IMG/VR virus record: IMGVR_UViG_3300027129_000004
Span: 1 to 64,000 of that record
Strand: one strand, 5' to 3'
Length of the DNA stretch: 64,000 nt
From: a virus
The notes below the pieces were generated by a model, which was not told where the DNA came from, made no database searches, and saw only the letters and a list, made by a program, of their open reading frames with translations. Position 1 is the stretch's first letter. Every line of letters starts with the position of its first letter. A program made the translations under genes and the position numbers. Positions 6,037-36,170 of this stretch are shown piece by piece.

Positions 6037-6141
6037 GATAAATAAAAATGCCTGACTTGGTGGTTCTTTTCGGGTTGGGATAAAGCACTTTCGAGTGCTT
6101 TTCCTGTATAAATACTAATAACCACCAAGTTAAGAGCAGTT
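6037..6141 (+). promoter_or_regulatory. Endonuclease 5' element E1 (hairpin with late promoter)
   Basis: Arms ACTTGGTGGTT (6055-6065) and AACCACCAAGT (6120-6130) are perfectly complementary. Between them lie a terminator-like hairpin AAAGCACT-TTCG-AGTGCTTT (6082-6101) and a T4-type late promoter TATAAATA (6107-6114). A GATAAATA precedes the left arm. The right arm ends 11 bases before the start codon. Confidence 0.75.
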
Positions 6142-6904
6142 ATGGTAAATCCTAAAAGATTTTATACCTATGCGTATTTAAGAGAAGATAGGACTCCTTA
6201 TTACATAGGTAAAGGTAGTGGAAGAAGATATTATAGTAGGAAAAAAACTGACATAAAACCACCTAAAGATAAATCAAGAGTAATATTATTAAAGCAAAAT
6301 TTAACCGAAGAAGAAGCATTTAGACACGAAATTTATATGATTGCGATTTTTGGTAAATTTGAAAACTGGTATTTTACTCAATAGGACTGATGGTGGGCAA
6401 GGTTCTTCAAATTTTTCTGAAGAAGCATTAAAAAAAATAAGTGAATCATCAAAAAATAGAGTTTATTCCTTAAAAACTAGAATAAAAAAAAGTAAATCTA
6501 TGACTGGTAAATTTCATACGGAAGAAACTAAAAGGAAAATGAGAGAATCTAAAAAAAATATATCCAAAGAAACAAGAGAAAAAATAAGTAAATGTAGTAA
6601 GGGTAGATTGCATACTGAAGAAACTAAAGAAAAAATAAGACAAGCAAATATTGGGAAAAAAATAAGTGAAGAAACAAAAAGAAAAATGAAAAATAAAATT
6701 TTAAGTGAAGAACATAGAAACACAATTTCAAATTTGCAGAGAAGACATTTTCTTTTTACTTCACCTAATGGAGAAATTATAGAGGAATTTACTACTTTGA
6801 TGAAATTTGGTAAAAAATATGGATTAGATTCTTCTTGCCTTTCAAAAGTGTTAAGGGGAAAGTTAAAACAACATAAAGGATGGAAAGTTCGTCAAATTTT
6901 ATGA
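6142..6904 (+). pseudogene. GIY-YIG endonuclease with NUMOD3 repeats, frameshifted
   Basis: Frame 1 (6142-6384) encodes the GIY-YIG domain (FYTYAYLRED...YYIGKGSGRRYY). Frame 2 (to 6904) continues with ILLNRTDGGQG, about four NUMOD3-like repeats (TEETKRKM, KETREKI and similar) and a helix-turn-helix end SSCLSKVLRGK...HKGWK. The switch lies near 6355-6370 in GGTAAATTTG, where one inserted base or two lost bases would restore frame. The halves look otherwise intact, so the lesion is recent, a sequencing error, or programmed. Confidence 0.8.
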
Positions 6905-6932
6905 TATAATAATAGGTGTAATTTTAAAATTT

Positions 6933-7094
6933 ATGAAACCTCTTCCACCAAAACACGAACTTGATATTTTTTGGACTGTTGCCACCAGTTCCGCAATTGA
7001 AAGTGGCACAAGACCCCACCTAATTTTTGCCCGACTGCTGTATGATGAGTTGTCGGACGAAGAGTTCCCTTACAAAATTGCTGATTCAAAATGA
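6933..7094 (+). CDS. Small hypothetical protein
   Basis: 53 residues, mixed, starting MKPLPPKHELDIFW. TATAAT at 6905-6910 may be its promoter. It overlaps the next start as ATGA. Part of it also reads as a cassette-like sequence (AGTGGCACAAGACCCC with TATGAT at 7041), so DNA here probably has two jobs. Confidence 0.65.
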   Translation: MKPLPPKHELDIFWTVATSSAIESGTRPHLIFARLLYDELSDEEFPYKIADSK

Positions 7095-7372
7095 GTTTTT
7101 CTAAGACTGTTTCTGTTGTTGCTGCTCTTGCCAGTATCTTTGCTGCTGGTGCTACTGGTTGGAAACTGGCAGATTCACAAAAAGAAGTTCCTTTGACTCC
7201 ATTGGACCAAAAGGTAATGGAACTGGAAAAGAAACTTGAACAAACACAACAACCACAAGTTGCTCCAGAACCTGTAAATCTCCCACAACCTACAGTTCAA
7301 ACAGTAGCACCACAACCTGCTATACTGCCACCACCTCCACCACCAGTAACTACTACTGAGGTAACACAATGA
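7091..7372 (+). CDS. Membrane-anchored proline-rich protein
   Basis: 93 residues. N-terminal membrane segment (about 6-25), a short coiled-coil stretch (DQKVMELEKKLEQTQQ), then a Pro/Gln/Val-rich tail ending with six consecutive prolines. The layout is like periplasm-spanning linkers or spanin-type proteins, but no lysis genes are adjacent. Overlaps the next start by ATGA. Confidence 0.75.
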   Translation: MSFSKTVSVVAALASIFAAGATGWKLADSQKEVPLTPLDQKVMELEKKLEQTQQPQVAPEPVNLPQPTVQTVAPQPAILPPPPPPVTTTEVTQ

Positions 7373-7623
7373 AAACTGAAATGAATAAGGACGCATACTA
7401 CGACTGGATTGCCGAAAATGATTCATATCCAGAACATTCTCATAAGTGGATAGTGGGACTTTATAACAAATATGAAGGTGTAGAGGGACTTCACCGATAC
7501 TTTGGAGTTTTTGAAACTCAAAATGAAGCACGAATTTTTGCTTCAAACTATAAGGACAAATATACAAAACCAGGATTTATTTCAAGTGTGCGAGTGTTCC
7601 CTTTATGTTCAATTGTTGAATAA
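7369..7623 (+). CDS. Small hypothetical protein
   Basis: 84 residues (80 if ATG 7381 is used), containing YDWIAENDSYPEHSHKW and a C-terminal segment like other 'FETQNEA..FASNYK' phage proteins. Its TAA begins the endonuclease 5' element that follows. Confidence 0.7.
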   Translation: MKTEMNKDAYYDWIAENDSYPEHSHKWIVGLYNKYEGVEGLHRYFGVFETQNEARIFASNYKDKYTKPGFISSVRVFPLCSIVE

Positions 7624-7728
7624 ATAATAGTACCTGTTATAGTTCGCACCTTATCAGGTAAAGATTAGAGGGCAGAAATGTCCTCTTTTCTTGTATAAAT
7701 ATTATTGCGAACTGTAACAGAAAGAACT
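7621..7728 (+). promoter_or_regulatory. Endonuclease 5' element E2 (hairpin with late promoter)
   Basis: Arms GTTATAGTTCGCA (7636-7648) and TGCGAACTGTAAC (7706-7718) pair over 13 positions with one G-T. The inner hairpin is AGAGGGC/GTCCTCT (7667-7686) followed by TTTTC. TATAAATA is at 7694-7701. Confidence 0.75.
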
Positions 7729-8514
7729 ATGACTGCACAAAGTCCAAGAATTTACATATACAAGATTATCTTTGAGGAAGTTTTGTATTACTATTATGGT
7801 GTTCATAAAGAGAAGAAGTTTAATGAATACTATATGGGTTCTCCTGAAACTCATAAGTGGATGTGGAATTTTTATACTCCTAAAAAGCAGATACTTCAAC
7901 TTTTTAACTTCACAGATGAAGGTTGGTTAGAAGCATTAGATATTGAAGAAAGATTAATTAGACCAGTTTTTAATACTGATAAATGGTGTCTTAACGAAGC
8001 ATGTGGTGGAAAGTTTTCTATTGATGTTTCTAGAAAAAATGGACAAAAAACAGGTAAAAAAATGTATGAAGAAAAAAGAGGTTTGTTTGCCTTAACACCA
8101 GAAGAAAGAAGTGAAATAGGAAGAAAAACTTTTGAAAAAGCAATAGGTTGTTTTTCCGTACCTCCAGAAGAAAGAACAAAACTTTCAAGTAAAGTAGGTA
8201 AAAGAAATTGCGAACTTGGTATTGGAGTTGCTGGAAGAAGTAAAGAAAAAATGACTGAAGATGGTAAAAAAGGTGGTACAAAAACAAAAGAACTTGGAGT
8301 AGGAATATTTGCTCTAACTAAAGAGGAAAGAAAAATTATATCTTCTAATGGTGGTAAAATAGGTGGAAGTAAAGGTGGTAAGAAAGGAGGGAAAACTACA
8401 GGTACTCAAAGATGGATGTGTCTTGAGACGGGATATATAACAACACCAGGACCACTTTCAATATATCAAAAGAAACAAGGTATAGATACTTCCAAACGAG
8501 TTAGAGTATCATAA
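7729..8514 (+). CDS. GIY-YIG-like endonuclease with repeat linker
   Basis: About 261 residues. The N-terminal IYIYKIIFEEV...YYYYGVHK with YYMGSPETHKW is a GIY-YIG-like core. Then come four copies of a module of the type [EK]-L-G-x-G-x-[FH]-A-L-T-x-E-E-R followed by G-G-K, and the end domain QRWMCLETGYI...LSxYQKKxxIDTSKR. The same end domain is found on the genes at 10098 and 32407. A homing endonuclease role is inferred. Start ATG 7729 is preferred over an upstream TTG inside the hairpin arm. Confidence 0.8.
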   Translation: MTAQSPRIYIYKIIFEEVLYYYYGVHKEKKFNEYYMGSPETHKWMWNFYTPKKQILQLFNFTDEGWLEALDIEERLIRPVFNTDKWCLNEACGGKFSIDVSRKNGQKTGKKMYEEKRGLFALTPEERSEIGRKTFEKAIGCFSVPPEERTKLSSKVGKRNCELGIGVAGRSKEKMTEDGKKGGTKTKELGVGIFALTKEERKIISSNGGKIGGSKGGKKGGKTTGTQRWMCLETGYITTPGPLSIYQKKQGIDTSKRVRVS

Positions 8515-8572
8515 GGACACTTGAAGAACTGGCACAGGGCATCTCCACAGGTGCCCTTTTTCGTTGTATAAT
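8515..8572 (+). promoter_or_regulatory. Terminator-promoter cassette
   Basis: GGACACTTGAAGAACTGGCACA, then the hairpin GGGCA/TGCCC with TTTTT, then TATAAT at 8567-8572. Confidence 0.7.
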
Positions 8573-8594
8573 GACTTCATAAGCAACCAAACCG

Positions 8595-8801
8595 ATGACT
8601 GACCAACAACAAATCACCGACGCATTTATGAGGGACTTTGAGGAACTCCTGCGTCGTTATAATGCCTCTTTTGATTTTTATAGTTATGATTGCGACACTC
8701 ATGCAGAGATTGACTTTGATGGTATCTATGATGAGAATGGAAATCAGGTAAGACCTTACATCAACTTTCAACTGCCCAATTACATCAATCCTAACCGATG
8801 A
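8595..8801 (+). CDS. Small hypothetical protein
   Basis: 68 residues; acidic, with YSYDCDTHAEIDFDGIYDENG in the middle (possible metal-binding acidic turn, unproven). First gene after a promoter cassette; ATGA overlap with the next. Confidence 0.75.
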   Translation: MTDQQQITDAFMRDFEELLRRYNASFDFYSYDCDTHAEIDFDGIYDENGNQVRPYINFQLPNYINPNR

Positions 8802-9100
8802 CTGAACTTACTCCTGAAGCACAAGCAGTTGTAGATGCCTTCTATCGTGAATTGCCCCCAAACTATCAGCAAGGAGGTATTACTGCTGCTCTCCGTGCTG
8901 CTATTGATAGTGTAGTTCCTGAAGAAGCAGAAGCATATAAACGGGGAGTAAAAATCCACGAACAAATGGAAGAATACTTGAAAACTCATTCTTTTGAGGT
9001 TTATACAGAAGGAGAAACAAAGTTATATGAAAGTGGTTTAGAGTATTCTCAACCTGATTATATTTTTGATGGACAGGGGATGTATTATCAGGACACTTGA
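8798..9100 (+). CDS. Hypothetical protein
   Basis: 100 residues. The N-terminal half resembles the short helical 'MTE...A..vmdAf...IAAALRAA' proteins encoded elsewhere in the window. The C-terminal half is acidic. The last codons (GAC ACT TGA) belong to the following promoter cassette. Confidence 0.75.
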   Translation: MTELTPEAQAVVDAFYRELPPNYQQGGITAALRAAIDSVVPEEAEAYKRGVKIHEQMEEYLKTHSFEVYTEGETKLYESGLEYSQPDYIFDGQGMYYQDT

Positions 9101-9147
9101 AGAACTGGCACAGGGGCACTCCACAGGTGCCCTTTTTGCACTATAAT
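9092..9147 (+). promoter_or_regulatory. Terminator-promoter cassette
   Basis: GGACACTTGAAGAACTGGCACA, hairpin GGGCAC/GTGCCC with TTTTT, and TATAAT at 9142-9147. Confidence 0.7.
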
Positions 9148-9172
9148 ACTCTCATACACAAAGGAACTCCAA

Positions 9173-9457
9173 ATGCTTGATGCCTTTACTGATTATCCTA
9201 TTCCATCTTATGGTGATGTTGCGGGAGAAAAAGCACCTATTCGTAAGGCAACAATCCTGACTTATGATAGAAATAAGTATTGTGATGTTCTTGTTTATCA
9301 AGTAGATGAATATGGTGATTTGAGAGGAACTGTTGTGAATTTCAAGCAGTTCTATCTCTATAAAAATGAAGCACGACTTGATGATGGTATTCAATTTACA
9401 TATGAAGAACTAAAAACTCTTCCTTGGACTGAAATAAGTTCTCCTCGTTACATTTGA
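9173..9457 (+). CDS. MLDAFTDYPI-family protein, copy 1
   Basis: 94 residues, mostly beta-like (KYCDVLVYQVDEYGDLRG). About two thirds identical to the protein at 43111, some 34 kb away. Preceded by AAAGGAACTCC, a good ribosome site also used by other cassette-driven genes. Function unknown. Confidence 0.85.
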   Translation: MLDAFTDYPIPSYGDVAGEKAPIRKATILTYDRNKYCDVLVYQVDEYGDLRGTVVNFKQFYLYKNEARLDDGIQFTYEELKTLPWTEISSPRYI

Positions 9458-9484
9458 CATAATACTCTCATAGACAACAAACCG
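9455..9484 (+). promoter_or_regulatory. Remnant of a promoter cassette
   Basis: Only the distal part remains: GACATAATACTCTCATAGACA and the AAACCG leader. The ACTGGCACA part is absent. Confidence 0.4.
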
Positions 9485-9745
9485 ATGACCGACTTCTACA
9501 GACTTATTCCTGGAACTGAAATTCTTCATAGCACCACTGATGTTTATGAACTCACTGATGAAGCAGAAGGTGTAACTCATACTGCAAAACTTCAAGCAGA
9601 TAATGGTGGGGTGTATATTGAATACACTGAAAAGAACCACGATTCAACAACTAAAAGTATCACCGAATGTGTGTCTATTGGGAACAAACAACTTGCGATC
9701 GTAGTTGCTCGTCGTATTCTTGAACTTTATGGAGAACTAAAATGA
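9485..9745 (+). CDS. Hypothetical protein
   Basis: 86 residues; beta-rich with a helical C-terminus (KQLAIVVARRILELYGELK). GGAGAACTAAAATGA forms both its end and the ribosome site of the next gene. Confidence 0.75.
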   Translation: MTDFYRLIPGTEILHSTTDVYELTDEAEGVTHTAKLQADNGGVYIEYTEKNHDSTTKSITECVSIGNKQLAIVVARRILELYGELK

Positions 9746-10002
9746 ACTATGAAACCGAAATCATAGATGGACGCAAAGCAGTGGTCCGTCATTTCTTCAA
9801 ACCACACGAAATCCAAGTTGGTTCTCGTTGGGCACGGGCAGATGGTTCCAAAGGTTATGTGACTGTTGAAGGTCTCAATTCTTATGGGAGCACAGACCCT
9901 TGTTATGAAGTTGTGTATTCTTGGGAAGAAAATGGTGTGAAGAAAATCTGGCAAAAAGAAACTTTTAGTTTTCAGTGTCGTTATTGTTTGATTGTAGAAT
10001 GA
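9742..10002 (+). CDS. Hypothetical protein
   Basis: 86 residues, beta-rich; contains KPHEIQVGSRWARADGSKGYVTVEGL, similar in style to small barrel (SH3-like) phage proteins such as the 12364 product (IPIGSKWKHKNSNDVYVV). Unknown function. Confidence 0.7.
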   Translation: MNYETEIIDGRKAVVRHFFKPHEIQVGSRWARADGSKGYVTVEGLNSYGSTDPCYEVVYSWEENGVKKIWQKETFSFQCRYCLIVE

Positions 10003-10097
10003 CTAAATAACAATACCTGTAAGTCGCATTATAGGTGGAAGAGGTGCTTTCGGGCACCTTTTCTTGTATAAATAGTATTGCGACTTACAGAGTAGAA
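10003..10097 (+). promoter_or_regulatory. Endonuclease 5' element E3 (hairpin with late promoter)
   Basis: Perfect 12-bp arms CTGTAAGTCGCA (10017-10028) and TGCGACTTACAG (10079-10090). Inner hairpin AGGTGC/GCACCT (10042-10059) plus TTTTC. TATAAATA at 10067-10074. Confidence 0.8.
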
Positions 10098-10862
10098 ATG
10101 AACTATCTAAAAGTTTATTGTAATCTCATCAGGAAAGCAGAGAACAGAACTCCACCTGATGGATATACAGAAAAACACCACATCTTTCCAGTAAGTATTT
10201 ACGGAAAGAATAATAGAGTTGTAGTTCTTACTTCAAGAGAACATTATGTTGCTCACGCACTACTTGAAAAAATATGTATAGTGAGATATGGTGTTCATCA
10301 TTATAAAACTCACAAAATGACTAATGCTCATATGAGAATGAAAAATAACAAAAGATATTACAATTCTTATCTTTATGAAAAATGTAGAAATAGATTTAGT
10401 GAGATAATTACTGAAAAAAATAAAGGGAGAGTTCATTCAATAGAAACCAGAGAAAAGATGGGTAATATTAGTGAAGATGTTAGAATTTTGAGACAAAATA
10501 TTGGAAAAGAAGTTGGAAATAAATTTGTAGAATTGAAAGTCGGTATTCACAATTTTACAAAAGAAGAAAGAGTTGAAGTTGCTAAAATGGGTGGAAATAA
10601 GTGTAAAGAACTTGGTAAAGGTATTCATAGTAGGACAGAAGATGAGAAATCAAAAGATGGTAAAATGGGTGGTAAAAAAACCTATGAACTAAAAATCGGT
10701 GCCTTTTCTATACCAAAAGAAGAAAGGTTAAAAATTATTCAAAAAGTAAATTCTCAAAGATGGATGTGTCTTGAAACAGGTTATATTAGTAATGCTGGTG
10801 CTCTTTCAACATATCAAAAAAAGAGAGATATAGACACTTCTAAAAGAAAACGAATATCATAG
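10098..10862 (+). CDS. HNH-type endonuclease with repeat linker
   Basis: 254 residues. The N-terminal domain has YTEKHHIFPVSIYG and REHYVAHALLEK, the His-rich signature of a phage HNH/ββα-metal nuclease. A linker follows with NUMOD-like helices and modules such as [EK]-L-K-V-G-I-H-N-F-T-K-E-E-R. The C-terminal QRWMCLETGYI domain is shared with the GIY-YIG genes at 7729 and 32407. Thus the nuclease head has been exchanged while the DNA-binding tail is kept. Confidence 0.85.
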   Translation: MNYLKVYCNLIRKAENRTPPDGYTEKHHIFPVSIYGKNNRVVVLTSREHYVAHALLEKICIVRYGVHHYKTHKMTNAHMRMKNNKRYYNSYLYEKCRNRFSEIITEKNKGRVHSIETREKMGNISEDVRILRQNIGKEVGNKFVELKVGIHNFTKEERVEVAKMGGNKCKELGKGIHSRTEDEKSKDGKMGGKKTYELKIGAFSIPKEERLKIIQKVNSQRWMCLETGYISNAGALSTYQKKRDIDTSKRKRIS

Positions 10863-10907
10863 GGACACTTTCCAAACCGTCACAGGGACACTTTCCAAAC
10901 CGTCACA
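10862..10907 (+). repeat. 23-bp tandem duplication in a promoter cassette
   Basis: GGGACACTTTCCAAACCGTCACA is present twice head to tail (10862-10884 and 10885-10907). Confidence 0.9.
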
Positions 10908-10943
10908 GGGGCACTTGAAAACAGGTGCCCTTTGTCGTATAAT
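10885..10943 (+). promoter_or_regulatory. Terminator-promoter cassette
   Basis: Hairpin GGGCAC/GTGCCC with TTTG, then TATAAT at 10938-10943 and the AAACCG leader. Confidence 0.65.
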
Positions 10944-10965
10944 AACCTTATAAGAAACCAAACCG

Positions 10966-11148
10966 ATGTCTCTCAATTATTTGTGTCTTGTTGATGGTGT
11001 CGTAGAATACGGCAGCACAGACCTCAACCAATTCAATCATTACCGTATGGTGTATGCCGAAGAACACCAAGATGCTGATGTTCAGTATCTCACTCTGACT
11101 GATGAAGAGTATGATGAACTATTTCCTGTGGAGGAGGGTGATTACTAA
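10966..11148 (+). CDS. Small acidic hypothetical protein
   Basis: 60 residues, pI clearly acidic, ending ...EEYDELFPVEEGDY. The GGAGGAGGG run inside its last codons is the ribosome site for the next gene, which starts at TAATG. Confidence 0.75.
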   Translation: MSLNYLCLVDGVVEYGSTDLNQFNHYRMVYAEEHQDADVQYLTLTDEEYDELFPVEEGDY

Positions 11149-11327
11149 TGACTGTTGCTGAATGGATTGAGAAACTCAAAGAGTTTCCACAAGACAAAGA
11201 AGTAAAAATCACAGATGGGCATAAGTATCACTTTTACGAAGGTGATTTTGACTTCCAACTCTTTGAGGATGTAGATGGTTCTACCTTTGTAGATATTGGT
11301 ATTGGTGGATTTGAGGTAGAAGAATGA
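11148..11327 (+). CDS. MTVAE-family small protein, copy 1
   Basis: 59 residues: MTVAEWIEKLKEFPQDKEVK then a Gly/Asp-rich end. Paralogue of 12133 (MTVAELIEKLKEYPQDLRV). This opening is widespread among phage hypothetical proteins. Function unknown. Confidence 0.8.
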   Translation: MTVAEWIEKLKEFPQDKEVKITDGHKYHFYEGDFDFQLFEDVDGSTFVDIGIGGFEVEE

Positions 11328-11500
11328 TTGAAGCAATTGAAGTCGCACTTTATCATGGAAACATTCTCTGTGCCTTTTCTACCCGTGATGAGTGTAAAAC
11401 CTTCATCAAAGAAAAACACCCTGATATTGACCCATTTGATATTCAACTAAAAACTCAATACATTAGTGATTACAAACCTTCTGGATACTTTGACCGATGA
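11324..11500 (+). CDS. Small hypothetical protein
   Basis: 58 residues, alpha/beta-like with CAFSTRDECKTFIKEKHPDID. ATGA overlaps at both ends. Confidence 0.7.
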   Translation: MIEAIEVALYHGNILCAFSTRDECKTFIKEKHPDIDPFDIQLKTQYISDYKPSGYFDR

Positions 11501-11652
11501 AATACTTTTTTCAAGATTACCTTGCTATGCCTCTTAGCATTCTATTGTTTCTTCTGATTGCTCCAACTGTAATGCTTGGTGGAGTTATATTTGCCACACA
11601 TATTCTTGGAGTTCTTCCTGATACTGGTATTTGCCAAAAGGTGGAGAAATGA
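11497..11652 (+). CDS. Small membrane protein
   Basis: 51 residues with one long hydrophobic stretch (about residues 9-40). Coupled to both neighbours by ATGA overlaps. Confidence 0.65.
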   Translation: MKYFFQDYLAMPLSILLFLLIAPTVMLGGVIFATHILGVLPDTGICQKVEK

Positions 11653-11879
11653 AACCTTATCTTTTGATTGCGGGGGACAACTATTACCCTTCTGCTTATA
11701 CTGGTGATTGGATTGCTTGTTATGAAACTAAAGAGGAAGCACAAGAAAAATGGGAGGAAATATCATCAAAATCAAAGTATAGATATGACTGGTATGAAAT
11801 CGTTGATTTGAGAAAGTGGATGGAAGATACTACATTTGATACTTTTGGAACTACTGGACTTATTGGAGACCCACAGTGA
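11649..11879 (+). CDS. Hypothetical protein
   Basis: 76 residues; opens with KPYLLIAGDNYYPSAYTGDW. The end GLIGDPQ is encoded by GGAGACCCACAGTGA, which doubles as the ribosome site and GTG start of the next gene; the same junction recurs near 16,575. Confidence 0.75.
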   Translation: MKPYLLIAGDNYYPSAYTGDWIACYETKEEAQEKWEEISSKSKYRYDWYEIVDLRKWMEDTTFDTFGTTGLIGDPQ

Positions 11880-12136
11880 AATTTTTTCAATATGACAAAA
11901 AAGTTTGGGATGATGGGGATACTGACCACACCTGGCAGTTTGGCATCATCAAAAATCTTTCATTACTTTGGGTGAATTATGAGAACCCCAGTAGGTTAGT
12001 TCATAGTAATGGTGGATTACACATCATGCTCTCATTTCTTACTTCTTCTTCTTTTCTTGGAGTAGATTTTCAAGTTGGTAAGGTTGGTTTGAGTTTTAAC
12101 TTTTTCACAGAATACTTTGAGGGGTGGCAAGAATGA
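11876..12136 (+). CDS. MKFFQ-family hypothetical protein (GTG start)
   Basis: 86 residues. Distant relative of the 5096 product. GTG 11876 overlaps the previous TGA, and GGAG lies 7 bases before it. Confidence 0.75.
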   Translation: MKFFQYDKKVWDDGDTDHTWQFGIIKNLSLLWVNYENPSRLVHSNGGLHIMLSFLTSSSFLGVDFQVGKVGLSFNFFTEYFEGWQE

Positions 12137-12360
12137 CTGTTGCTGAATTGATTGAAAAACTTAAAGAGTATCCACAAGATTTGAGAGTGGTTGTTCGTGG
12201 TTATGAGGGTGGAGTAGATGATGTTAGTCATTTTGAAGAACTTGAAATCTTACTGGACTATCATGATGCTTGGTATTATGGAAAACACGAAGAGGTATTT
12301 TCTTGGACCAAGGATACAACTCACGAAAAAGTTCCAGCACTTAAACTTTGTGGAGAATGA
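12133..12360 (+). CDS. MTVAE-family small protein, copy 2
   Basis: 75 residues. MTVAELIEKLKEYPQDLRVVV then an acidic and Tyr-rich end. Longer C-terminus than the copy at 11148. Overlaps the previous stop by ATGA. Confidence 0.8.
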   Translation: MTVAELIEKLKEYPQDLRVVVRGYEGGVDDVSHFEELEILLDYHDAWYYGKHEEVFSWTKDTTHEKVPALKLCGE

Positions 12361-12363
12361 AGA

Positions 12364-12546
12364 ATGACTGAAATACCAATAGGTTCTAAATGGAAACATA
12401 AGAACTCTAATGATGTTTATGTTGTAATGGAGCAGTATTCTCATAGAGTTGTTCTTCAACACGAACTTACTGGAACAAGTATCAAACTCACAGTAGGACA
12501 TCTAAATCCAGATGGTTTTGCTGATTATGAAAGGATAGAAGAATGA
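12364..12546 (+). CDS. Small beta-rich protein
   Basis: 60 residues: IPIGSKWKHKNSNDVYVVMEQYSH, a KOW/SH3-like small barrel pattern that I recall from many phage hypothetical proteins. Ends in an ATGA overlap. Confidence 0.75.
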   Translation: MTEIPIGSKWKHKNSNDVYVVMEQYSHRVVLQHELTGTSIKLTVGHLNPDGFADYERIEE

Positions 12547-12767
12547 CTGAAAGAACACCTATACAAATCTCTGGAAATAGAGCATTATGTGCCGATGGAA
12601 CTCTGTGGATGTGGAGTGATGGAGATTTTATGTGTGGAACACCTTCTGGATGGGTAAAACTTCCTCCTATTCCTACCGACGAACAATATGAAATTTTGAC
12701 AAAAGACAGGGTTGAAAAAGAAAGAGAATGGATAAAAAAAGTAACTGAAAAAGGTGGGGGGAATTAA
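12543..12767 (+). CDS. Hypothetical protein
   Basis: 74 residues; Trp-rich middle (LWMWSDGDFMCG) and a charged helical tail. No family recognised. Confidence 0.7.
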   Translation: MTERTPIQISGNRALCADGTLWMWSDGDFMCGTPSGWVKLPPIPTDEQYEILTKDRVEKEREWIKKVTEKGGGN

Positions 12768-12770
12768 AAA

Positions 12771-29374: not shown

Positions 29375-29392
29375 AAAACTCTTGGATCTGTA

Positions 29393-29449: not shown

Positions 29450-29472
29450 AGTCTCATACACACAGAACCCTG

Positions 29473-29862
29473 ATGAAACCCTTTGATTACTACTCCAAAC
29501 CCCAAACTGTTTATCCCAACAAAAAGGATTACATCACCTCTTATGTTTATGATAAGGGTGTAGTTCTTTGGTCTGGTCCTACTTGGGAAAAGGATAAAGC
29601 AGAACTAAAAGAAGAATATCCTAATGCTCTCATTCAAGAAATTTTGGATGAGGACGCATACAAGGCACAACGCAAAAAATATACTGATGAAGAGTTTAAT
29701 CTTCAAGTACAGTTCCAGAATGATTTGTTTGAAGATTATGGTGTGACTGATAATCCTAAAAGGTTCATGTGTTTTGACCTTGCTTGGGAACAGGGACACG
29801 CTTATGGTCTTGAAGAAGTGTATAATAAGTTTGATGACTTGGTGGAACTTATTAAGGATTGA
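29473..29862 (+). CDS. Hypothetical protein
   Basis: 129 residues: FDYYSKPQTVYPNKKDY...YVYDKGVVLWSG, Asp/Glu-rich, ending with AWEQGHAYGLEEVYNKFDDLVELI. The latter has the 'GHxxGLEEVYNxxxDLVxLI' pattern I recall from phage proteins. Confidence 0.8.
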   Translation: MKPFDYYSKPQTVYPNKKDYITSYVYDKGVVLWSGPTWEKDKAELKEEYPNALIQEILDEDAYKAQRKKYTDEEFNLQVQFQNDLFEDYGVTDNPKRFMCFDLAWEQGHAYGLEEVYNKFDDLVELIKD

Positions 29863-29919
29863 GGACACTTGATGAACTGGCACAGGGGATTCTCTGGGTG
29901 CCTCTGGATGGTGTATAAT
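29863..29919 (+). promoter_or_regulatory. Promoter cassette
   Basis: GGACACTTGATGAACTGGCACA, GGGGATTCTCTGG, TATAAT at 29914-29919. Confidence 0.65.
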
Positions 29920-30007
29920 ACTCCTATACACCCAGAGAATGTGAGTATTCTCATATCACACAAGAACTCATCACCCAAACCGCAGAGGACATTCTATCTT
30001 TTTACAA

Positions 30008-30187
30008 ATGACTGAACGCAACTTCAAGAAAGAACTCTCTCACTCTGTTTATTATGATATGGAGGATGGGAATGATACTGAAACCATTTGTTATCCTTCC
30101 TTGATTTCTATTATCACAGAGTTGTGTGATAGAATTGAACAACTTGAAAAATCTCAACATACACACTCGGAAATGAACAATGACTGA
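30008..30187 (+). CDS. Small protein, paralogue of 30979
   Basis: 59 residues: MTERNFKKELSHSVYYDMEDGNDTET...LCDRIEQLEK. The 30979 product shares MTERN, YYxDMEDG and the helical end. Confidence 0.75.
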   Translation: MTERNFKKELSHSVYYDMEDGNDTETICYPSLISIITELCDRIEQLEKSQHTHSEMNND

Positions 30188-30347
30188 AAACAAACTGAAA
30201 ATTGAACAAGAAGTGATTGATGACCTCTATTTTCAAATGAATGTCAATAAACCAAAAAAAAGATCCCAACAATTACTTGAAGAAGGTCTAATCAAAAAGG
30301 CATATTTGATGGGGTATTATGAATGTGAATGTAAGAACCAAAAATGA
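30180..30347 (+). CDS. Small basic protein
   Basis: 55 residues, helical; ends AYLMGYYECECKNQK. Overlaps both neighbours. Confidence 0.65.
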   Translation: MTENKLKIEQEVIDDLYFQMNVNKPKKRSQQLLEEGLIKKAYLMGYYECECKNQK

Positions 30348-30481
30348 AACACTCACCATACACACTTGGAATAATCACGGGATTTTGTATTGCTGCTCTG
30401 TATTTTATGGCACCTGGTATCTTTGAGAGTTTCAAACAACCAGAAGCAAGTTATGAAACAAATAGAAGAGTATCCTTATAA
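30344..30481 (+). CDS. Small membrane protein
   Basis: 45 residues: MKHSPYTLGIITGFCIAALYF, one membrane helix. Its end overlaps the next gene by 29 bases. Confidence 0.6.
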   Translation: MKHSPYTLGIITGFCIAALYFMAPGIFESFKQPEASYETNRRVSL

Positions 30482-30791
30482 AAAATATACACCAGATGAA
30501 GTTGCTGATGAAGTAGAGTGGGATGAGAAAGATAATCCTGCTTCAATTGGATTCAAAATTGCCGATGAAGTTGTGAATAGGTTGGTGAAAAAACACCAAG
30601 CACAAAAACTTTTTAATAGATTGGTAGATGAACTTGGTTTCGAGTTTGATACTTGTAATGATATTGTAGATTTGGTGGAAGACTGGATTTTAGAAGAACA
30701 AAGTGCTTCTGGTTCGCAGAATGTGAATACTGAATTGCTTGTTGAGGGATTTAATGACGCAATACGCAAAATGAAAGAGATGTTGCGATGA
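30453..30791 (+). CDS. Modular protein related to 27713
   Basis: 112 residues: DEVEWDEKDNP, ADEVVNRLVKKHQAQKLFNRL and EQSASGSQNVNTELLVEGFND all have close counterparts in the 27713 product. An N-terminally shorter derivative of that architecture. Confidence 0.75.
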   Translation: MKQIEEYPYKKYTPDEVADEVEWDEKDNPASIGFKIADEVVNRLVKKHQAQKLFNRLVDELGFEFDTCNDIVDLVEDWILEEQSASGSQNVNTELLVEGFNDAIRKMKEMLR

Positions 30792-30797
30792 CTGAAA

Positions 30798-30986
30798 ATG
30801 ACTAAAAAGAAAGACACTTGGAAAAAGTGGAACATCTATACCTCAATCCATCTCTTTGAGTATTGTGTGTATAGTTGGAGAAATCATATGTGGAACCATC
30901 TTGATGGATATCCAAATGAAGAGAGAATGAGAAACCTATTCTGGTATTATTTGAACTACGGACACGCAAACACTTATTATGACTGA
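30798..30986 (+). CDS. Small Trp-rich protein
   Basis: 62 residues, basic start (TKKKDTWKKW) and aromatic body. Overlaps the next gene by 8 bases. Confidence 0.65.
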   Translation: MTKKKDTWKKWNIYTSIHLFEYCVYSWRNHMWNHLDGYPNEERMRNLFWYYLNYGHANTYYD

Positions 30987-31161
30987 ACGAAACCTAAAAC
31001 AACAACTCCAGTATTCCTACTATGAGGATATGGAGGATGGTAGAACAACTGAAACGATTGATTATGATGCCTTGATTGAAATTATTGATGATTTGTATGA
31101 TAAAATTGAAACACTTCAAAGGGATAATGAATTCCTGAAATCTTATGCTTGGGAACAATGA
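30979..31161 (+). CDS. Small protein, paralogue of 30008
   Basis: 60 residues: MTERNLKQQLQYSYYEDMEDG, IIDDLYDKIETLQ. Confidence 0.75.
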   Translation: MTERNLKQQLQYSYYEDMEDGRTTETIDYDALIEIIDDLYDKIETLQRDNEFLKSYAWEQ

Positions 31162-31352
31162 CTGACGAACAAATCTGCGAAATGGTTAATAGGCACCGAT
31201 ACCTTATGAGGTGTGAGATTAAACACGCACTTGATAAATTTTGTGCTGAAAATGGGAACCAAGACTTCAGCACTGCCAATCGTTCAGAAGCATTCAACGA
31301 TACAAAATGGATTGAATTTGCTAAATGGTTCAAGGAGATAAGAGATGAATGA
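31158..31352 (+). CDS. Small hypothetical protein
   Basis: 64 residues: TDEQICEMVNRHRYLM...WIEFAKWFKEIRDE; distant relative of the TDEQIL family. Confidence 0.7.
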   Translation: MTDEQICEMVNRHRYLMRCEIKHALDKFCAENGNQDFSTANRSEAFNDTKWIEFAKWFKEIRDE

Positions 31353-31527
31353 AGAACTTTATATTCTTTATCTCAAACTTCGTGGTGGATATTGGAGAGT
31401 TAAGGAGGCATTTTCTATTTGGGGATTTTTGATGACCCATAGTTTGGAAAGATTAAATGAAAGATGTCACGGTTTAAATTGTTTTGATGAGTTTTATGCT
31501 ACAATTAATGGTGGTTGGAAAAAATGA
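31345..31527 (+). CDS. Small hypothetical protein
   Basis: 60 residues, aromatic and basic. Overlaps the previous gene by 8 bases and the next by ATGA. Confidence 0.65.
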   Translation: MNEELYILYLKLRGGYWRVKEAFSIWGFLMTHSLERLNERCHGLNCFDEFYATINGGWKK

Positions 31528-31673
31528 CCGAACAATACGGGAATCTTCCTGATGGTTTCTTTCTTTATGAAAGGGAGATTGAAGACTTGAGAAACTCTAA
31601 AAAAGAATTGACGACTTATGGTAGAGAGAAACTGAGAGAACTTATTGAAAAGCAGAAGAAAGAGGACACCTGA
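31524..31673 (+). CDS. TEQYGNLPDGFF protein, copy 2
   Basis: 49 residues, near-identical duplicate of 28949. Here the GACACCTGA end continues straight into an intact promoter cassette. Confidence 0.75.
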   Translation: MTEQYGNLPDGFFLYEREIEDLRNSKKELTTYGREKLRELIEKQKKEDT

Positions 31674-31720
31674 CCAACTGGCACAAGACCCCTCCACAGG
31701 GGCACCAGATGCCTTATAAT
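31664..31720 (+). promoter_or_regulatory. Terminator-promoter cassette
   Basis: GGACACCTGACCAACTGGCACA, hairpin GGCA/TGCC directly before TATAAT at 31715-31720. Confidence 0.7.
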
Positions 31721-31752
31721 AGTCTCATACACATAACAAATACTCTATTTTT

Positions 31753-32025
31753 ATGAACAAAGAACCACTCCAAGCAAAAGTATCCGACGAAGATTACCAA
31801 AAACTTCTTGATTACTTCAAAACTCAACTTGTTCAATCGGTTGTACCCAACAACCCTTTGAGTAAGGTTCAACAAACACGAACCATCTATTCCAAAATCA
31901 AAGAGAAAAATGTAGTAGAAGGTCTGGTTTCTTTTGATGGTGAAGAACCTGCTTGGGTTCCGATTGAAACCATCAACGGGATTTATTCCTTTATCAACAA
32001 AACCTTTGACAATTTTAACATTTGA
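31753..32025 (+). CDS. Hypothetical protein
   Basis: 90 residues: KEPLQAKVSDEDYQKLLDYFKTQL... then beta strands. Its last codons overlap the strong promoter of the tRNA gene that follows. Confidence 0.7.
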   Translation: MNKEPLQAKVSDEDYQKLLDYFKTQLVQSVVPNNPLSKVQQTRTIYSKIKEKNVVEGLVSFDGEEPAWVPIETINGIYSFINKTFDNFNI

Positions 32026-32034
32026 TAGTATAAT
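32006..32034 (+). promoter_or_regulatory. Consensus sigma70 promoter for a tRNA
   Basis: TTGACA (32006-32011), 17 bases, TATAAT (32029-32034): a perfect consensus promoter 12 bases before the tRNA. Confidence 0.85.
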
Positions 32035-32045
32035 CGTCTGGTGCT

Positions 32046-32122
32046 GTGTCTGTGGACCGAGTGGTGAAGGCAACCGTCTGCAAAACGGTTAATCAACGTG
32101 GGTTCAAATCCCACCAGACACT
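32046..32122 (+). tRNA. tRNA-Cys(GCA), second copy
   Basis: Acceptor GTGTCTG/CAGACAC, anticodon loop CTGCAAA (GCA at 32080-32082) on ACCGT/ACGGT, T-arm GTGGG/TTCAAAT/CCCAC. The variable region is longer than usual (about 8 bases) and the D-stem is weak. Sequence is unlike the Cys tRNA at 530, so this is not a duplicate. Confidence 0.8.
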
Positions 32123-32160
32123 CTTATAAATTATGAGGCACTAAAGGAACTGAAATACAA

Positions 32161-32310
32161 ATGAGTGAAGACCTAATCTTCTATACAAATGGTAAAGAAA
32201 CGTCCCGTATTCCTTCTCCAACTCTTGAAACTCTTACTCTTGGAACCAAAACACCAGAAACTAAACTTGAAATAGAAAAAACAATGGATAAAGAAGATAC
32301 TGATAAATAA
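32161..32310 (+). CDS. Small protein matching the N-terminus of 27174
   Basis: 49 residues: LIFYTNGKETSRIPS...LGTKTPETKLEIE, parallel to YYKNGEETFRISPS...GTKCPETKLEIK. A stand-alone or truncated module. Its TAA opens the next endonuclease element. Confidence 0.7.
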   Translation: MSEDLIFYTNGKETSRIPSPTLETLTLGTKTPETKLEIEKTMDKEDTDK

Positions 32311-32406
32311 TAGTGCTTATGTGTGTCGCAACCATAGCAGAGATTGGGTGCTTTCGGGCACCTTTTCTTGTATAAATACTATTGCGACACAACATAAAGC
32401 AGAACT
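32303..32406 (+). promoter_or_regulatory. Endonuclease 5' element E4 (hairpin with late promoter)
   Basis: Arms TGTGTCGCAA (32322-32331) and TTGCGACACA (32382-32391), extended by GCTTATG/CATAAAGC. Inner hairpin GGTGC/GCACC (32347-32362) plus TTTTC. TATAAATA at 32371-32378. Confidence 0.8.
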
Positions 32407-33195
32407 ATGGAACTCAAAGAGTATCACTATGTTTATTATTCCTATGAGGAATATGGTAGAGGATATTTTGGTAGTAGAACTTGTAAATGTTTACCAGAAG
32501 ATGATGTAAGATATTTTGGTTCTTACAGGGATAAGACATTCAAACCAACTCAAAAGATAATCTTGAAAAGTGATTATGCTACAAGAGAAGAGGCATATGA
32601 TGATGAGATTACTTTACAAGAATATTATAAAGTAGTTGAAAATCCACATTTTTCTAATAGGGCATATCAAACATCTACAAAATTTTCTTATATAAGACCA
32701 ACAGAACAAGCAAGAGAAATTGGAAAAAAATCTGGATTAAAAGTAAAAGAACTTGGATTGGGATTTCACGCACTCACAAAAGAACAATTAAGTGAAAATT
32801 CTAAAAAAATGGTAGAAAAACATAGAAAAACTGGAACTGGTTTATTTACTTTAACTAATGAACAAAGAAGTAAAGGTGGATTAAAAAATAAAGAACAAGG
32901 TTCGGGAATTTTTTCTTTAACGGAAGAAGAAAAACAAAAAATAAGAAGTGAAGCAGGAAAAATAGGAGGGAAAAGGGCAGCAGAACTGAAAGTAGGTGCT
33001 CACGGAAGAACAAAAGAACAGATGAGTGAGGATGGTAAAAAAGTATCAAAATCAGTAAGAATACAAGCAGGAAAAACAACAAGTTCTCAAAGATGGATGT
33101 GTCTTGAAACAGGACATATTTCTACACCAGGAGGACTTTCAAAATATCAAAAACATAAAGGAATAGATACTTCTAGAAGAATAAGAGTATCATAA
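32407..33195 (+). CDS. GIY-YIG-like endonuclease with repeat linker
   Basis: 262 residues. N-terminal YHYVYYSYEEYGRGYFGSRTCKC with RYFGSYRD and an acidic helix (EEAYDDEITLQEYY) is a GIY-YIG-like head different from that at 7729. The middle has the same ELGxGxxALTxEQ/GG modules, and the end is QRWMCLETGHI...LSKYQKHKGIDTSRR. Confidence 0.8.
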   Translation: MELKEYHYVYYSYEEYGRGYFGSRTCKCLPEDDVRYFGSYRDKTFKPTQKIILKSDYATREEAYDDEITLQEYYKVVENPHFSNRAYQTSTKFSYIRPTEQAREIGKKSGLKVKELGLGFHALTKEQLSENSKKMVEKHRKTGTGLFTLTNEQRSKGGLKNKEQGSGIFSLTEEEKQKIRSEAGKIGGKRAAELKVGAHGRTKEQMSEDGKKVSKSVRIQAGKTTSSQRWMCLETGHISTPGGLSKYQKHKGIDTSRRIRVS

Positions 33196-33254
33196 AGGAC
33201 ACTTGACGAACTGGAACAAGGTGCCTTTACGGGGCACCTTTTTTGTTGTATAAT
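33196..33254 (+). promoter_or_regulatory. Terminator-promoter cassette
   Basis: GGACACTTGACGAACTGGAACA, strong hairpin GGTGCC/GGCACC with TTTTTT, then TATAAT at 33249-33254. Confidence 0.75.
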
Positions 33255-33275
33255 ATGAGAAATCAAAGGAACATT

Positions 33276-33581
33276 ATGGAAGATAGATTTTATCCAGATG
33301 AAATGTTTGAAGTTGCTGAACGAAGGGAGAAGAGTAATCGTGTTCTCCAAAGGTATAATGACTACTACAATATGGAGTGTGAATCATTACCAACTGGAGG
33401 ACCAATTAGTATGATGCATATGCAAGCAATTGCATTACAATCTGCAATTGATGCTCTGCGTTGCGAAAACCTGAATCGTGAGTATAATGAAATCGCAATC
33501 TCTGATATTGAGGATTTGATTGAACGATTGTATCAACAGAGTAATGAGTATCTTGAACGAGTGAGGAAACTGAAAAAATGA
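33276..33581 (+). CDS. Hypothetical protein
   Basis: 102 residues, helical, Met-rich; ends EDLIERLYQQSNEYLERVRKLKK. ATG 33276 is chosen because AAAGGAAC precedes it and the earlier in-frame ATG overlaps the -10 box. Confidence 0.75.
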   Translation: MEDRFYPDEMFEVAERREKSNRVLQRYNDYYNMECESLPTGGPISMMHMQAIALQSAIDALRCENLNREYNEIAISDIEDLIERLYQQSNEYLERVRKLKK

Positions 33582-33598
33582 CTTACTCACCAAACCTG

Positions 33599-33655
33599 TG
33601 ACACTTGTGAAACTGGCACAAGACCCCACCAATCCCCCTGTGGATGCCCTATAAT
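33599..33655 (+). promoter_or_regulatory. Promoter cassette
   Basis: GACACTTGTGAAACTGGCACA, TATAAT at 33650-33655. Confidence 0.65.
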
Positions 33656-33677
33656 AGTCTCATATTCAAAAAGAGCA

Positions 33678-33941
33678 ATGACTGCTTCCAATCTTTCTAA
33701 AATCAAACCTAAACTTCGCACTCAAGGCTCTGTATCTGGGAACTTTGGTAGGGCAAAAGTTAAAGCAGGTTCTCCTTTGCGTGATATTGGAATGACCGAT
33801 GCAAAAGTAGTTAAAGTTTGCACACAAGAAGATTATCTGAAGAGACTCTATCTTGCATATGAGACAACTGAAGATGCTAAACTGAAAAAGTTTGTATTTT
33901 CTGAAATTAAAAAGATTCTAATCCAACGAGGGGAATGGTGA
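33678..33941 (+). CDS. Basic hypothetical protein
   Basis: 87 residues, basic: SKIKPKLRTQGSVSGNFGRAKVKAG; a helical end. Possibly nucleic-acid binding by charge only. Confidence 0.75.
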   Translation: MTASNLSKIKPKLRTQGSVSGNFGRAKVKAGSPLRDIGMTDAKVVKVCTQEDYLKRLYLAYETTEDAKLKKFVFSEIKKILIQRGEW

Positions 33942-34123
33942 GTAACACTGTTTACGCATATTCAGAAGTTGAACGTGCTTACAAGATTCTTAAAGAACTT
34001 GCAGAACGTGAGAATAAACTTCATATGATGGATATGACCATCAATCTCCAGCATCTTGATGTTATTCAATACGAGATTCTTCCTGCACTGGAAGAAATCG
34101 TTTATTTTGACCCAACTCCTTAA
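33935..34123 (+). CDS. Small helical protein
   Basis: 62 residues: VERAYKILKELAERENKLHMM. Overlaps the previous gene by 7 bases. Confidence 0.7.
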   Translation: MVSNTVYAYSEVERAYKILKELAERENKLHMMDMTINLQHLDVIQYEILPALEEIVYFDPTP

Positions 34124-34142
34124 TTGTCTACATAGGTATAAC

Positions 34143-34166
34143 AATGGACAGTTTTTTCACTGTCCA
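34143..34166 (+). repeat. 9-bp perfect inverted repeat
   Basis: ATGGACAGT/ACTGTCCAT with a TTTTTC loop; probably an RNA hairpin ending the previous unit, though no U-tract follows. Confidence 0.6.
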
Positions 34167-34173
34167 TTTGCAC

Positions 34174-34202
34174 TTGATTACGCACCGAAAGGGTGCTATG
34201 AT
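34174..34202 (+). promoter_or_regulatory. Sigma70-like promoter
   Basis: TTGATT, 17 bases, TATGAT. 20 bases before a small membrane protein gene. Confidence 0.6.
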
Positions 34203-34221
34203 TACGAAGTAAATCACTCAA

Positions 34222-34350
34222 ATGATGTTCGACACATTCAATTTTACTGGTGATGCCACTACCTTTATTGGTTTGGTTGGTGTTATTAGCACTGCTGTTA
34301 TTGTTATTACTGTTTTCCGTTCTTACTGGTCTAGTCCTTATCGCAAATGA
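34222..34350 (+). CDS. Small membrane protein
   Basis: 42 residues with a central hydrophobic helix (FIGLVGVISTAVIVITVF). Two consecutive ATGs; ATGA overlap with the next gene. Confidence 0.65.
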   Translation: MMFDTFNFTGDATTFIGLVGVISTAVIVITVFRSYWSSPYRK

Positions 34351-34568
34351 ATTATTCAAAATCCATTCAAGAGTACGAAAAAGAACTCAAAGAAGCAAAG
34401 AAAAAGTTTGATAAACTCTCAAAGCAATATAAAAAGTGTAGAAGTGTTTATCAAGCAGAGATGATGTACGATGACCTAACAATTCTGAATGAAGATATTT
34501 CTGAACTTCAGATGATTGTGAAGGAACTGCGTCAACAAAAGAAACTTGCCGAAATTGATGTTGTCTAA
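34347..34568 (+). CDS. Coiled-coil protein
   Basis: 73 residues, Lys/Glu heptads throughout (SIQEYEKELKEAKKKFDKL). Possibly an oligomeric partner protein. Confidence 0.75.
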   Translation: MNYSKSIQEYEKELKEAKKKFDKLSKQYKKCRSVYQAEMMYDDLTILNEDISELQMIVKELRQQKKLAEIDVV

Positions 34569-34570
34569 TT

Positions 34571-34801
34571 ATGTCTGACCTTTATACTGAAATCTTGGTG
34601 TTTAACAAAATGTCTTTTAATCGTGAGCAACTTGTTGAGGATTATATCCAGCAAACGATTGGAGGAATGGATTATAAGACTATGGAACGTTTTGTTTATG
34701 ATACTTTGAAAGATAATCTAGCAGATTATAATGATGAAGAATTGATTACAGAGGTTACAGACTACTACCCAGAATTGTTGGAGGATGTTGATACTCTGTG
34801 A
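34571..34801 (+). CDS. Acidic hypothetical protein
   Basis: 76 residues: FNREQLVEDYIQQTIGGMDYKTMERFVYDTLKDNL...YNDEELITEVTDYYPELLED. The Y-D-T-L-x-D-N-L...D-E-E-L pattern is common in cyanophage hypothetical proteins. Confidence 0.8.
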   Translation: MSDLYTEILVFNKMSFNREQLVEDYIQQTIGGMDYKTMERFVYDTLKDNLADYNDEELITEVTDYYPELLEDVDTL

Positions 34802-34855
34802 CACTTGTGGCACTGGCACACTAAAAGATCACAGCACCTCAAATCCTGCTATAAT
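34800..34855 (+). promoter_or_regulatory. Promoter cassette
   Basis: GACACTTGTGGCACTGGCACACTAAAAG, TATAAT at 34850-34855. Confidence 0.65.
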
Positions 34856-34877
34856 TACTTCGTAATCAATCAACACC

Positions 34878-35054
34878 ATGTTAGTCCTTGATTCTATTGG
34901 TTTCTACGATAAGTTTCAAAATTATAATCTAATCCTAGATTTTTCTGGTCGTTGGGTAGAACATTATAATTATATGATATCTCCTTTTAATGAAAAATGG
35001 ATAAATAAAACCTATCAAGATGAGATAAGGCAAAATCGGTTTTACGATGTTTGA
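34878..35054 (+). CDS. Small aromatic-rich protein
   Basis: 58 residues: LVLDSIGFYDKFQNYNLILDFSGRWVEHYNY. No family recognised. Confidence 0.6.
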   Translation: MLVLDSIGFYDKFQNYNLILDFSGRWVEHYNYMISPFNEKWINKTYQDEIRQNRFYDV

Positions 35055-35063
35055 TTGTGCCTT

Positions 35064-35121
35064 GTGCCACTGATTCTTCTGGCACATAACACTTTACAGA
35101 CCCCAGAACCTGTGCTATGAT
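35064..35121 (+). promoter_or_regulatory. Promoter cassette, inverted-repeat type
   Basis: GTGCCA (35064-35069)/TGGCAC (35080-35085), TATGAT at 35116-35121. Confidence 0.65.
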
Positions 35122-35149
35122 GTATTCATCAAGTCAAGGAGGTTTCAAG

Positions 35150-35293
35150 ATGATTGACACTTGTGTTCTTCACGATGATTACGAGGACTTTGCTAAAAAG
35201 TTTCTCGGTGTTGATTATGAGGACTTTATTGGTCTTCAACTTGGTCTTCCCGATGAAGATGAAATTGAAATTGAATACTCTTTAAGTATTTGA
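35150..35293 (+). CDS. Small acidic protein
   Basis: 47 residues, strongly acidic: DDYEDFAKKFLGVDYEDF...DEDEIEIEY. The strongest Shine-Dalgarno in the region (AAGGAGG) lies 9 bases upstream. Confidence 0.75.
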   Translation: MIDTCVLHDDYEDFAKKFLGVDYEDFIGLQLGLPDEDEIEIEYSLSI

Positions 35294-35378
35294 TTTCATT
35301 TGGAACGGGTTTGCCAATGGGTTGGAAATATCTAACCAATAAAGTTACCCATTTTTCGTTCCCTTGACTTTTCATTAA

Positions 35379-35609
35379 ATGTCTGCTAAACTGATTGCTC
35401 TTGCTTCCGAAATCGTTGATACCAACCCTGCTGCTGCTCAACTGATTGTTAGTCTGACTAAAGCAGAAACTGGTGCTGAACTCATCGAAGCACTTGATAA
35501 CTATGATTCCACCGTGCTTGAGAACTATTCTGAACCTGTGGATTCTGAAGATGAAGATGAAGGTGAAGTGACTCTCACCGATGCAGATGGTATTGTAACT
35601 TCTGTTTGA
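35379..35609 (+). CDS. Acidic hypothetical protein
   Basis: 76 residues: helical start then an acidic tail (DSEDEDEGEV). TTGACT lies 16 bases before the start but no clear -10 is seen. Confidence 0.75.
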   Translation: MSAKLIALASEIVDTNPAAAQLIVSLTKAETGAELIEALDNYDSTVLENYSEPVDSEDEDEGEVTLTDADGIVTSV

Positions 35610-35647
35610 TTTTTGATTCTTTAATTTCTTAACCAACTAATTTTATT

Positions 35648-35899
35648 ATGGCACGTCGCAACAAGTCTGCATCTCGTCAAATGGTTGAAAATCTTCAAGA
35701 ACAACTTGTTGAGTATTTTCAAGAAAACATCTTTGATGATTGTGATTACGAAGATTTGACTGGTTCTGACCTTCTTGAAGCACTGGTTGGCACTTTCCGT
35801 GAACTGGAAAGTGAAATCCAAAAGAAAATGAACCCGATTCAGTATGTGCTAAATAAAATTGACCCAGAGGATTCTGAATCTCAAGTCCTTAACGGTTAA
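35648..35899 (+). CDS. Hypothetical protein
   Basis: 83 residues: MARRNKSASRQMVENLQEQLVEYF, basic start then acidic helices. No family recognised. Confidence 0.75.
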   Translation: MARRNKSASRQMVENLQEQLVEYFQENIFDDCDYEDLTGSDLLEALVGTFRELESEIQKKMNPIQYVLNKIDPEDSESQVLNG

Positions 35900-35984
35900 T
35901 TCTTACGGGCATCAAAGGTCCAAACTTTGAATAAGACCCACACCCTCTATGCCTCTTAACAATGCACAAACCAGAGGGTCTCTT

Positions 35985-36057
35985 GGGCATATGGTGAAGT
36001 GGATTATCACACGGCTCTTCTAAAGCCTTATCCCTGGTTCGAATCCAGGTATGCCTG
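35985..36057 (+). tRNA. tRNA-Arg(TCT)
   Basis: Acceptor GGGCATA/TATGCCT (G1-T72 wobble), anticodon loop CTTCTAA (TCT at 36019-36021), T-arm CCTGG/TTCGAAT/CCAGG, D-arm GTGA/TCAC. AGA is a rare codon class in many cyanobacteria and common in AT-rich phages, so supply of this tRNA makes sense. Confidence 0.9.
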
Positions 36058-36063
36058 TTTAAT

Positions 36064-36170
36064 ATAAATAATAGTGCCTGAGTTGGGTGCAATCTTCACA
36101 GGTAAGATAGTGGGGGCAGAAATGTCCCCTCTTCTAATATAAATACTATTGCACCCAACAAAGAGCAGTT
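36064..36170 (+). promoter_or_regulatory. Endonuclease 5' element E5 (hairpin with late promoter)
   Basis: Perfect 12-bp arms GTTGGGTGCAAT (36082-36093) and ATTGCACCCAAC (36148-36159). Inner hairpin GGGGGC...GTCCCCT (near 36112-36128) plus CTTCT. TATAAATA at 36138-36145. Confidence 0.8.

Follow-up and report, generated by a model that had tools for sequence, protein, structure and literature searches.

How are homing endonuclease genes that stand free in a phage genome, and that must not harm their host phage, controlled wherever they insert? We addressed this question in a 64,000-nucleotide (nt) stretch of viral DNA (the window), a section of the 88-kilobase virus record IMGVR_UViG_3300027129_000004. 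The window is of the T4-like cyanophage type, and its closest annotated relatives are the Synechococcus phages S-SRM01 and S-PM2. An initial annotation had described five elements here, each preceding an endonuclease gene and each consisting of two complementary arms with a terminator-like hairpin and an internal late promoter between them. All five lie where that annotation placed them, and every one has complementary arms, the hairpin and, confirming the internal late promoter, TATAAATA directly 5' of the right arm. What had been overlooked is that the late-promoter motif also occurs at the left end, as a TAAATA that opens each element, that a small stem-loop carries the left arm as its loop, and that the terminator closes this left unit; the start coordinates originally given fall inside the left promoter. 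On balance, we lean towards the view that these elements belong to an extensive family of mobile cassettes found in T4-like phages of cyanobacteria. In this view, each nuclease would be restrained in trans by a private antisense RNA with a late promoter of its own, divergence of the arms would have produced many families that do not pair with one another, and the module would have been swapped between unrelated nucleases.

Each element reads, from 5' to 3', as a left promoter (P1, N[AC]TAAATA), 5 nt, a purine, a short stem with the left arm as its loop, an intrinsic terminator and a second promoter (P2). P2, nearly always TATAAATA, is again followed by 5 nt and a purine, and the right arm forms the first 14 nt of the leader. 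TATAAATA occurs seven times in the window; five sites are the internal promoters and a sixth is the left copy in element 5. In T4 late promoters, the TATA box precedes the start by about one helical turn (PMC2988020), and the +1 positions were predicted from this T4 spacing. The predicted +1 is a purine in 188 of 190 elements for P2 and in 184 of 190 for P1, with similar spacers on both sides. The nuclease start codon lies at about +21 of the P2 transcript, leaving a leader of only about 20 nt. By sequence and folding, the P1 unit is a predicted discrete RNA of about 50–60 nt, made up of the small stem-loop and the intrinsic terminator, and its complementarity to the P2 mRNA lies in the loop and the 5' strand of the stem. 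A terminator-like hairpin was found in all of the folded examples inspected. Arm pairing covers +1 to +14 of the P2 transcript and ends about 6 nt before the AUG, overlapping the Shine-Dalgarno sequence in part and leaving the start codon free. In some leaders (L206 and L220) the P2 region is partly duplicated, as in CTATTATAAACTCTTATAAATA.

The phenomenon is confirmed to be much wider than the five loci first described. We collected 190 distinct elements, mostly from IMG/VR and the isolate S-SRM01; they comprise 83 different target sequences, and nearly all of the elements precede GIY-YIG or HNH nucleases. A DNA-pattern scan of IMG/VR returned at least 119 stretches, most of them with the same element. 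This first sample was selected by a pattern containing P2, and because elements entered the set of 190 by way of the double motif, the conservation of P1 has to be judged from loci fetched by protein. Two protein scans with the window nucleases gave 124 loci, fetched irrespective of their leaders; a script found the left motif, the right motif and the arms in 72 of 84 distinct leaders. Reading the remaining 12 by eye added two positives (L142 and L164), and one leader (L213) is cut by the contig end. S-SRM01 has six elements with different arms in each. Diverged members with the same layout occur in the isolates B23, S-B68, MA01 and S-CREM2, where one precedes a gene (at 29672 in S-CREM2) annotated as intron-associated endonuclease II. 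These surfaced only through the nuclease protein search; blastn of the element against 50,697 phage records returned S-SRM01 only, plus a stray terminator match. Bacterial genome contigs held no exact match to the promoter core. At gathering score, no Rfam covariance model covered the elements, and the only Rfam matches in the window were tRNA, transfer-messenger RNA (tmRNA) and abiF.

As judged from its sequence, P1 matches the late promoters of this phage group. Of 32 late or structural genes of S-SRM01, 28 have N[AC]TAAATA no more than 60 nt upstream, compared with 1 of 27 early-region genes (both lists hand-picked from the annotation) and 2.5% of random windows, and the late-gene motifs include ACTAAATA and TCTAAATA forms. 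A term search of the S-SRM01 genome paper turned up no promoter or transcript analysis.

The complementarity of the arms is specific. Among the first loci, a perfect upstream complement of at least 8 nt was present at 134 of 290 TATAAATA sites, against 84 of 1450 after left and right halves had been swapped between sites. Over 83 distinct arm families, the mean duplex energy was -19.0 kcal/mol for cognate and -7.1 kcal/mol for non-cognate pairs, and the cognate partner ranked top in 61 families. Pairing is 100% at +1 to +6, 72–98% out to +14 and 24% at -2. In the B23, S-B68, MA01 and S-CREM2 elements, which were inspected by eye and had no part in setting the rule, it likewise starts at or next to +1. 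A covariance check of the R-scape type, suggested by the initial annotation, was run in our own implementation on 168 non-redundant elements, with a FastTree tree and nulls obtained by replaying substitutions on it. The claim that the arms covary held: four arm:arm column pairs (21:84, 23:82, 17:89 and 13:93) and one terminator pair (45:56) reached significance, each exceeding the null maximum. The arm helix spans about 13 base pairs and has a single bulged base on the side of the leader. Covariation of the small stem itself was below significance in this test. Column 13 is complementary to its partner in the small stem and to the leader mRNA alike, which suggests that either the stem-loop or the arm duplex forms.

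Comparison of occupied and empty sites in related genomes shows the extent of the mobile unit. Homology ends just 5' of the TAAATA of P1, the flanks rejoin past the nuclease, and at empty sites the block of P1, stem-loop, terminator, P2 and nuclease is missing as a whole; in several occupied/empty pairs, the empty junction has no late promoter. Since the block including P1 is absent wherever the nuclease is absent, the control region belongs to the cassette and moves with it as one. In 16 of 72 arm families, identical arms precede nucleases of unrelated types, which argues that control modules have been exchanged between nucleases.

With promoter motifs, stem-loop, terminator, specific covarying complementarity and movement as one cassette established by sequence comparison, we propose that P1 probably makes an antisense RNA whose pairing partner is the 5' end of the P2 nuclease mRNA, and that the same base pairs lock read-through RNA in cis. 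P1 would fire late in infection to give an RNA of about 50–60 nt ending at the intrinsic terminator, while P2 would start a nuclease mRNA with a leader of about 20 nt. The P1 RNA would pair with +1 to about +14 of this mRNA, cover the region just 5' of the start codon and, acting in trans, limit nuclease translation late in infection. Its antisense seed is mostly unpaired in the folded prediction (mean 0.64). If polymerase entered from upstream or ran on beyond the terminator, the pairs would form in cis and lock the ribosome site, as in T4 I-TevI.

A hairpin combined with a late promoter is known for T4 homing endonucleases, and seven free-standing T4 endonucleases have been described as promoter-less cassettes (PMC2988022). 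The elements resemble those of I-TevI, I-TevII and I-TevIII, segB and Aeh1 mobE in that a homing endonuclease gene of a T4-like phage has a late promoter between complementary arms, and transcripts starting at this promoter do not include the left arm. The T4-like design proposed by the initial annotation stands insofar as folding allows a lock in cis; the architecture differs. Here, a late-promoter motif lies directly before the left arm, which would not be reached by read-through alone; a separate stem-loop presents this arm as its loop, a terminator stands between the arms, and pairing runs from +1 to +14 without reaching the AUG. The additional P1, stem-loop and terminator and the short pairing set the tandem element apart from the T4 type and are better explained by an antisense RNA and its target leader. 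True T4-type hairpins lacking a left promoter are found in the same phages, at the S-SRM01 psbA-intron endonuclease (207739) and at 49945-49993 of the window. The latter is a classic cis hairpin, GTTTTGTCCCAAAAC .. TATAAATA .. GTTTTGGGACAAAAC, before an open reading frame of about 55 codons that is not nuclease-like, and each of its arms is itself nearly palindromic. A second leader class (L219, L238, L255 and S-SRM01 77561-77665, the latter in L127 with its site at 77630) has a terminator-like hairpin, GGGC..AAGTTGC..GTCCC, and no conserved P1; its loop, for example TGTGTCTGGGG, complements the bases immediately 5' of the AUG in GIY-YIG genes.

Antisense control offers further comparisons. 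In plasmids, RNAI and CopA are small stem-loop RNAs that pair with the leader of the gene they limit and are transcribed from the opposite strand of their target, whereas here two same-strand units are kept complementary by covariation. The c4 RNA of phages P1 and P7 is, like the predicted RNA, a same-strand antisense RNA just upstream of its target that pairs through loops; c4 is processed from a transcript shared with ant, whereas the RNA predicted here has its own late promoter and terminator. The c4 of phage P1 has been described as a loop-based antisense RNA, and CfrI of cyanophage S-PM2 as an antisense RNA to psbA that is encoded between psbA and the endonuclease gene F-CphI (PMC12197685). 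CfrI, too, is non-coding and neighbours a homing endonuclease gene in a T4-like cyanophage; the RNA predicted here differs in being same-strand, in recurring in many cassettes and in targeting the nuclease leader. In the open-licence literature we found no published description of a same-strand antisense unit combined with tandem late promoters.

Could a lock in cis suffice? In the model of the initial annotation, early or middle read-through RNA folds arm on arm and hides the ribosome site, and late RNA from the internal promoter is translated; the terminator would be a second barrier and the left TAAATA a non-working promoter or a mere feeder of read-through. Covarying arms and an internal late promoter fit this model, I-TevI, segB and mobE provide precedent (PMC2988022), and in folding predictions the unpaired probability of the Shine-Dalgarno window falls from 0.58 in the short mRNA to 0.25 in read-through RNA, which makes such a lock possible. 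The value with P1 RNA added is also 0.25. Accessibility was dropped as a discriminator between cis and trans, and the argument for trans action rests on the conserved P1, stem-loop and terminator. A lock in cis leaves unexplained why P1 is conserved at a fixed spacing, why a stem-loop presents the arm and why the cassette carries a terminator inside the hairpin; its pairing would also stop short of the AUG, unlike that of the true cis hairpins. We consider it unlikely, though a real possibility, that the elements act in cis only.

Another explanation is that terminator and P2 insulate the nuclease from early transcription, the arms being a remnant of promoter duplication or serving recombination at the DNA level. 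The P1 and P2 regions do resemble a direct repeat, TAAATANTANTG, and the ubiquity of the hairpin in the folded examples agrees with insulation. Duplication, however, yields direct repeats and not inverted complementarity, and the specific covariation of the arms over 83 families makes this account very improbable. Even less probable is that the P1 RNA aims at other phage or host mRNAs, with the nuclease leader as one target among several. The recurrence of one arm module before unrelated nucleases could be read in this way, but the complementarity tracks the adjacent leader precisely, and no orphan units were found among 296 profile matches in the sequences examined.

Several observations nevertheless count against an antisense RNA acting in trans. 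The cis lock is predicted to be as strong as the trans effect, and the lack of orphan P1 units means that nothing shows action away from the adjacent gene. Such units had been considered as immunity RNAs; the lone candidate proved to be an element read on the opposite strand. T runs behind the terminator often number just 3–4, P1 is degenerate in L240 and in one S-CREM2 element, and constraint on the promoter may account for part of the sharp pairing edge at +1. If cross-talk is costly, a genome should avoid carrying identical arms; such avoidance was not seen (3 of 122 pairs within genomes, 42 of 2624 between genomes), in a test of low power because the arms are so diverse. In one record (G007), the left arms of the cassettes at 51855 and 67057 are identical, which means that orthogonality need not be strict.

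The features of the five elements are listed below. The nuclease gene of element 1 is frameshifted, and a near-identical gene in another locus (L175) has an unbroken frame; the cassette of element 1 therefore seems to be decaying, unless the frameshift is a sequencing error. The element 4 protein has 44 relatives in viral contigs, and those scored that have an upstream leader nearly all show the same leader type.

Table. Coordinates of the five elements and their genes in the window.
Feature	Position	Strand	Description
Element 1 P1	6037..6044	+	left late promoter GATAAATA; predicted +1 at 6050
Element 1 predicted antisense RNA	6050..6106	+	antisense stretch 6052-6065 in stem-loop; terminator 6082-6102
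Element 1 P2	6107..6114	+	TATAAATA; predicted +1 at 6120
Element 1 target	6120..6133	+	nuclease mRNA nt 1-14
Element 1 nuclease	6142..6904	+	GIY-YIG-like N-terminus, NUMOD3; frameshift near residue 72
Element 2 P1	7619..7626	+	AATAAATA; predicted +1 at 7632
Element 2 predicted antisense RNA	7632..7693	+	antisense stretch 7634-7648; terminator 7667-7689
Element 2 P2	7694..7701	+	TATAAATA; predicted +1 at 7707
Element 2 nuclease-like protein	7729..8514	+	SPRIYIYKI.. type; no Pfam match
Element 3 P1	10002..10009	+	ACTAAATA; predicted +1 at 10015
Element 3 predicted antisense RNA	10015..10066	+	antisense stretch 10017-10028; terminator 10043-10062
Element 3 P2	10067..10074	+	TATAAATA; predicted +1 at 10080
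Element 3 nuclease	10098..10862	+	homologues in T4-like phages annotated as homing endonuclease
Element 4 P1	32302..32309	+	GATAAATA; predicted +1 at 32315
Element 4 predicted antisense RNA	32315..32370	+	antisense stretch 32316-32330; terminator 32347-32366
Element 4 P2	32371..32378	+	TATAAATA; predicted +1 at 32384
Element 4 nuclease-like protein	32407..33195	+	no Pfam match
Element 5 P1	36063..36070	+	TATAAATA; predicted +1 at 36076
Element 5 predicted antisense RNA	36076..36137	+	antisense stretch 36078-36091; terminator 36112-36133
Element 5 P2	36138..36145	+	TATAAATA; predicted +1 at 36151
Element 5 nuclease	36171..36746	+	GIY-YIG and NUMOD3

Other non-coding features were noted in the window. 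The abiF match (48.8 bits, 35943-35979) adjoins a tRNA gene and lies about 85 bases 5' of the P1 of element 5. A match to a phage-borne tmRNA of the cyanobacterial type (662-915) lies next to two tRNA genes, and a non-coding stretch 5' of an HNH gene (50160-50560) contains many copies of a short repeat around TTCGTTAT.

The cassette appears to keep its nuclease restrained wherever it is inserted. With a self-contained control module able to function at any site of insertion, it would become understandable that one phage can carry six or more such genes in unrelated places. If the proposed trans action is true, antisense RNA would join cis hairpins and autorepression as a layer of control over homing endonucleases, and the family would offer more than 80 natural pairs of antisense RNA and leader that are directly testable.

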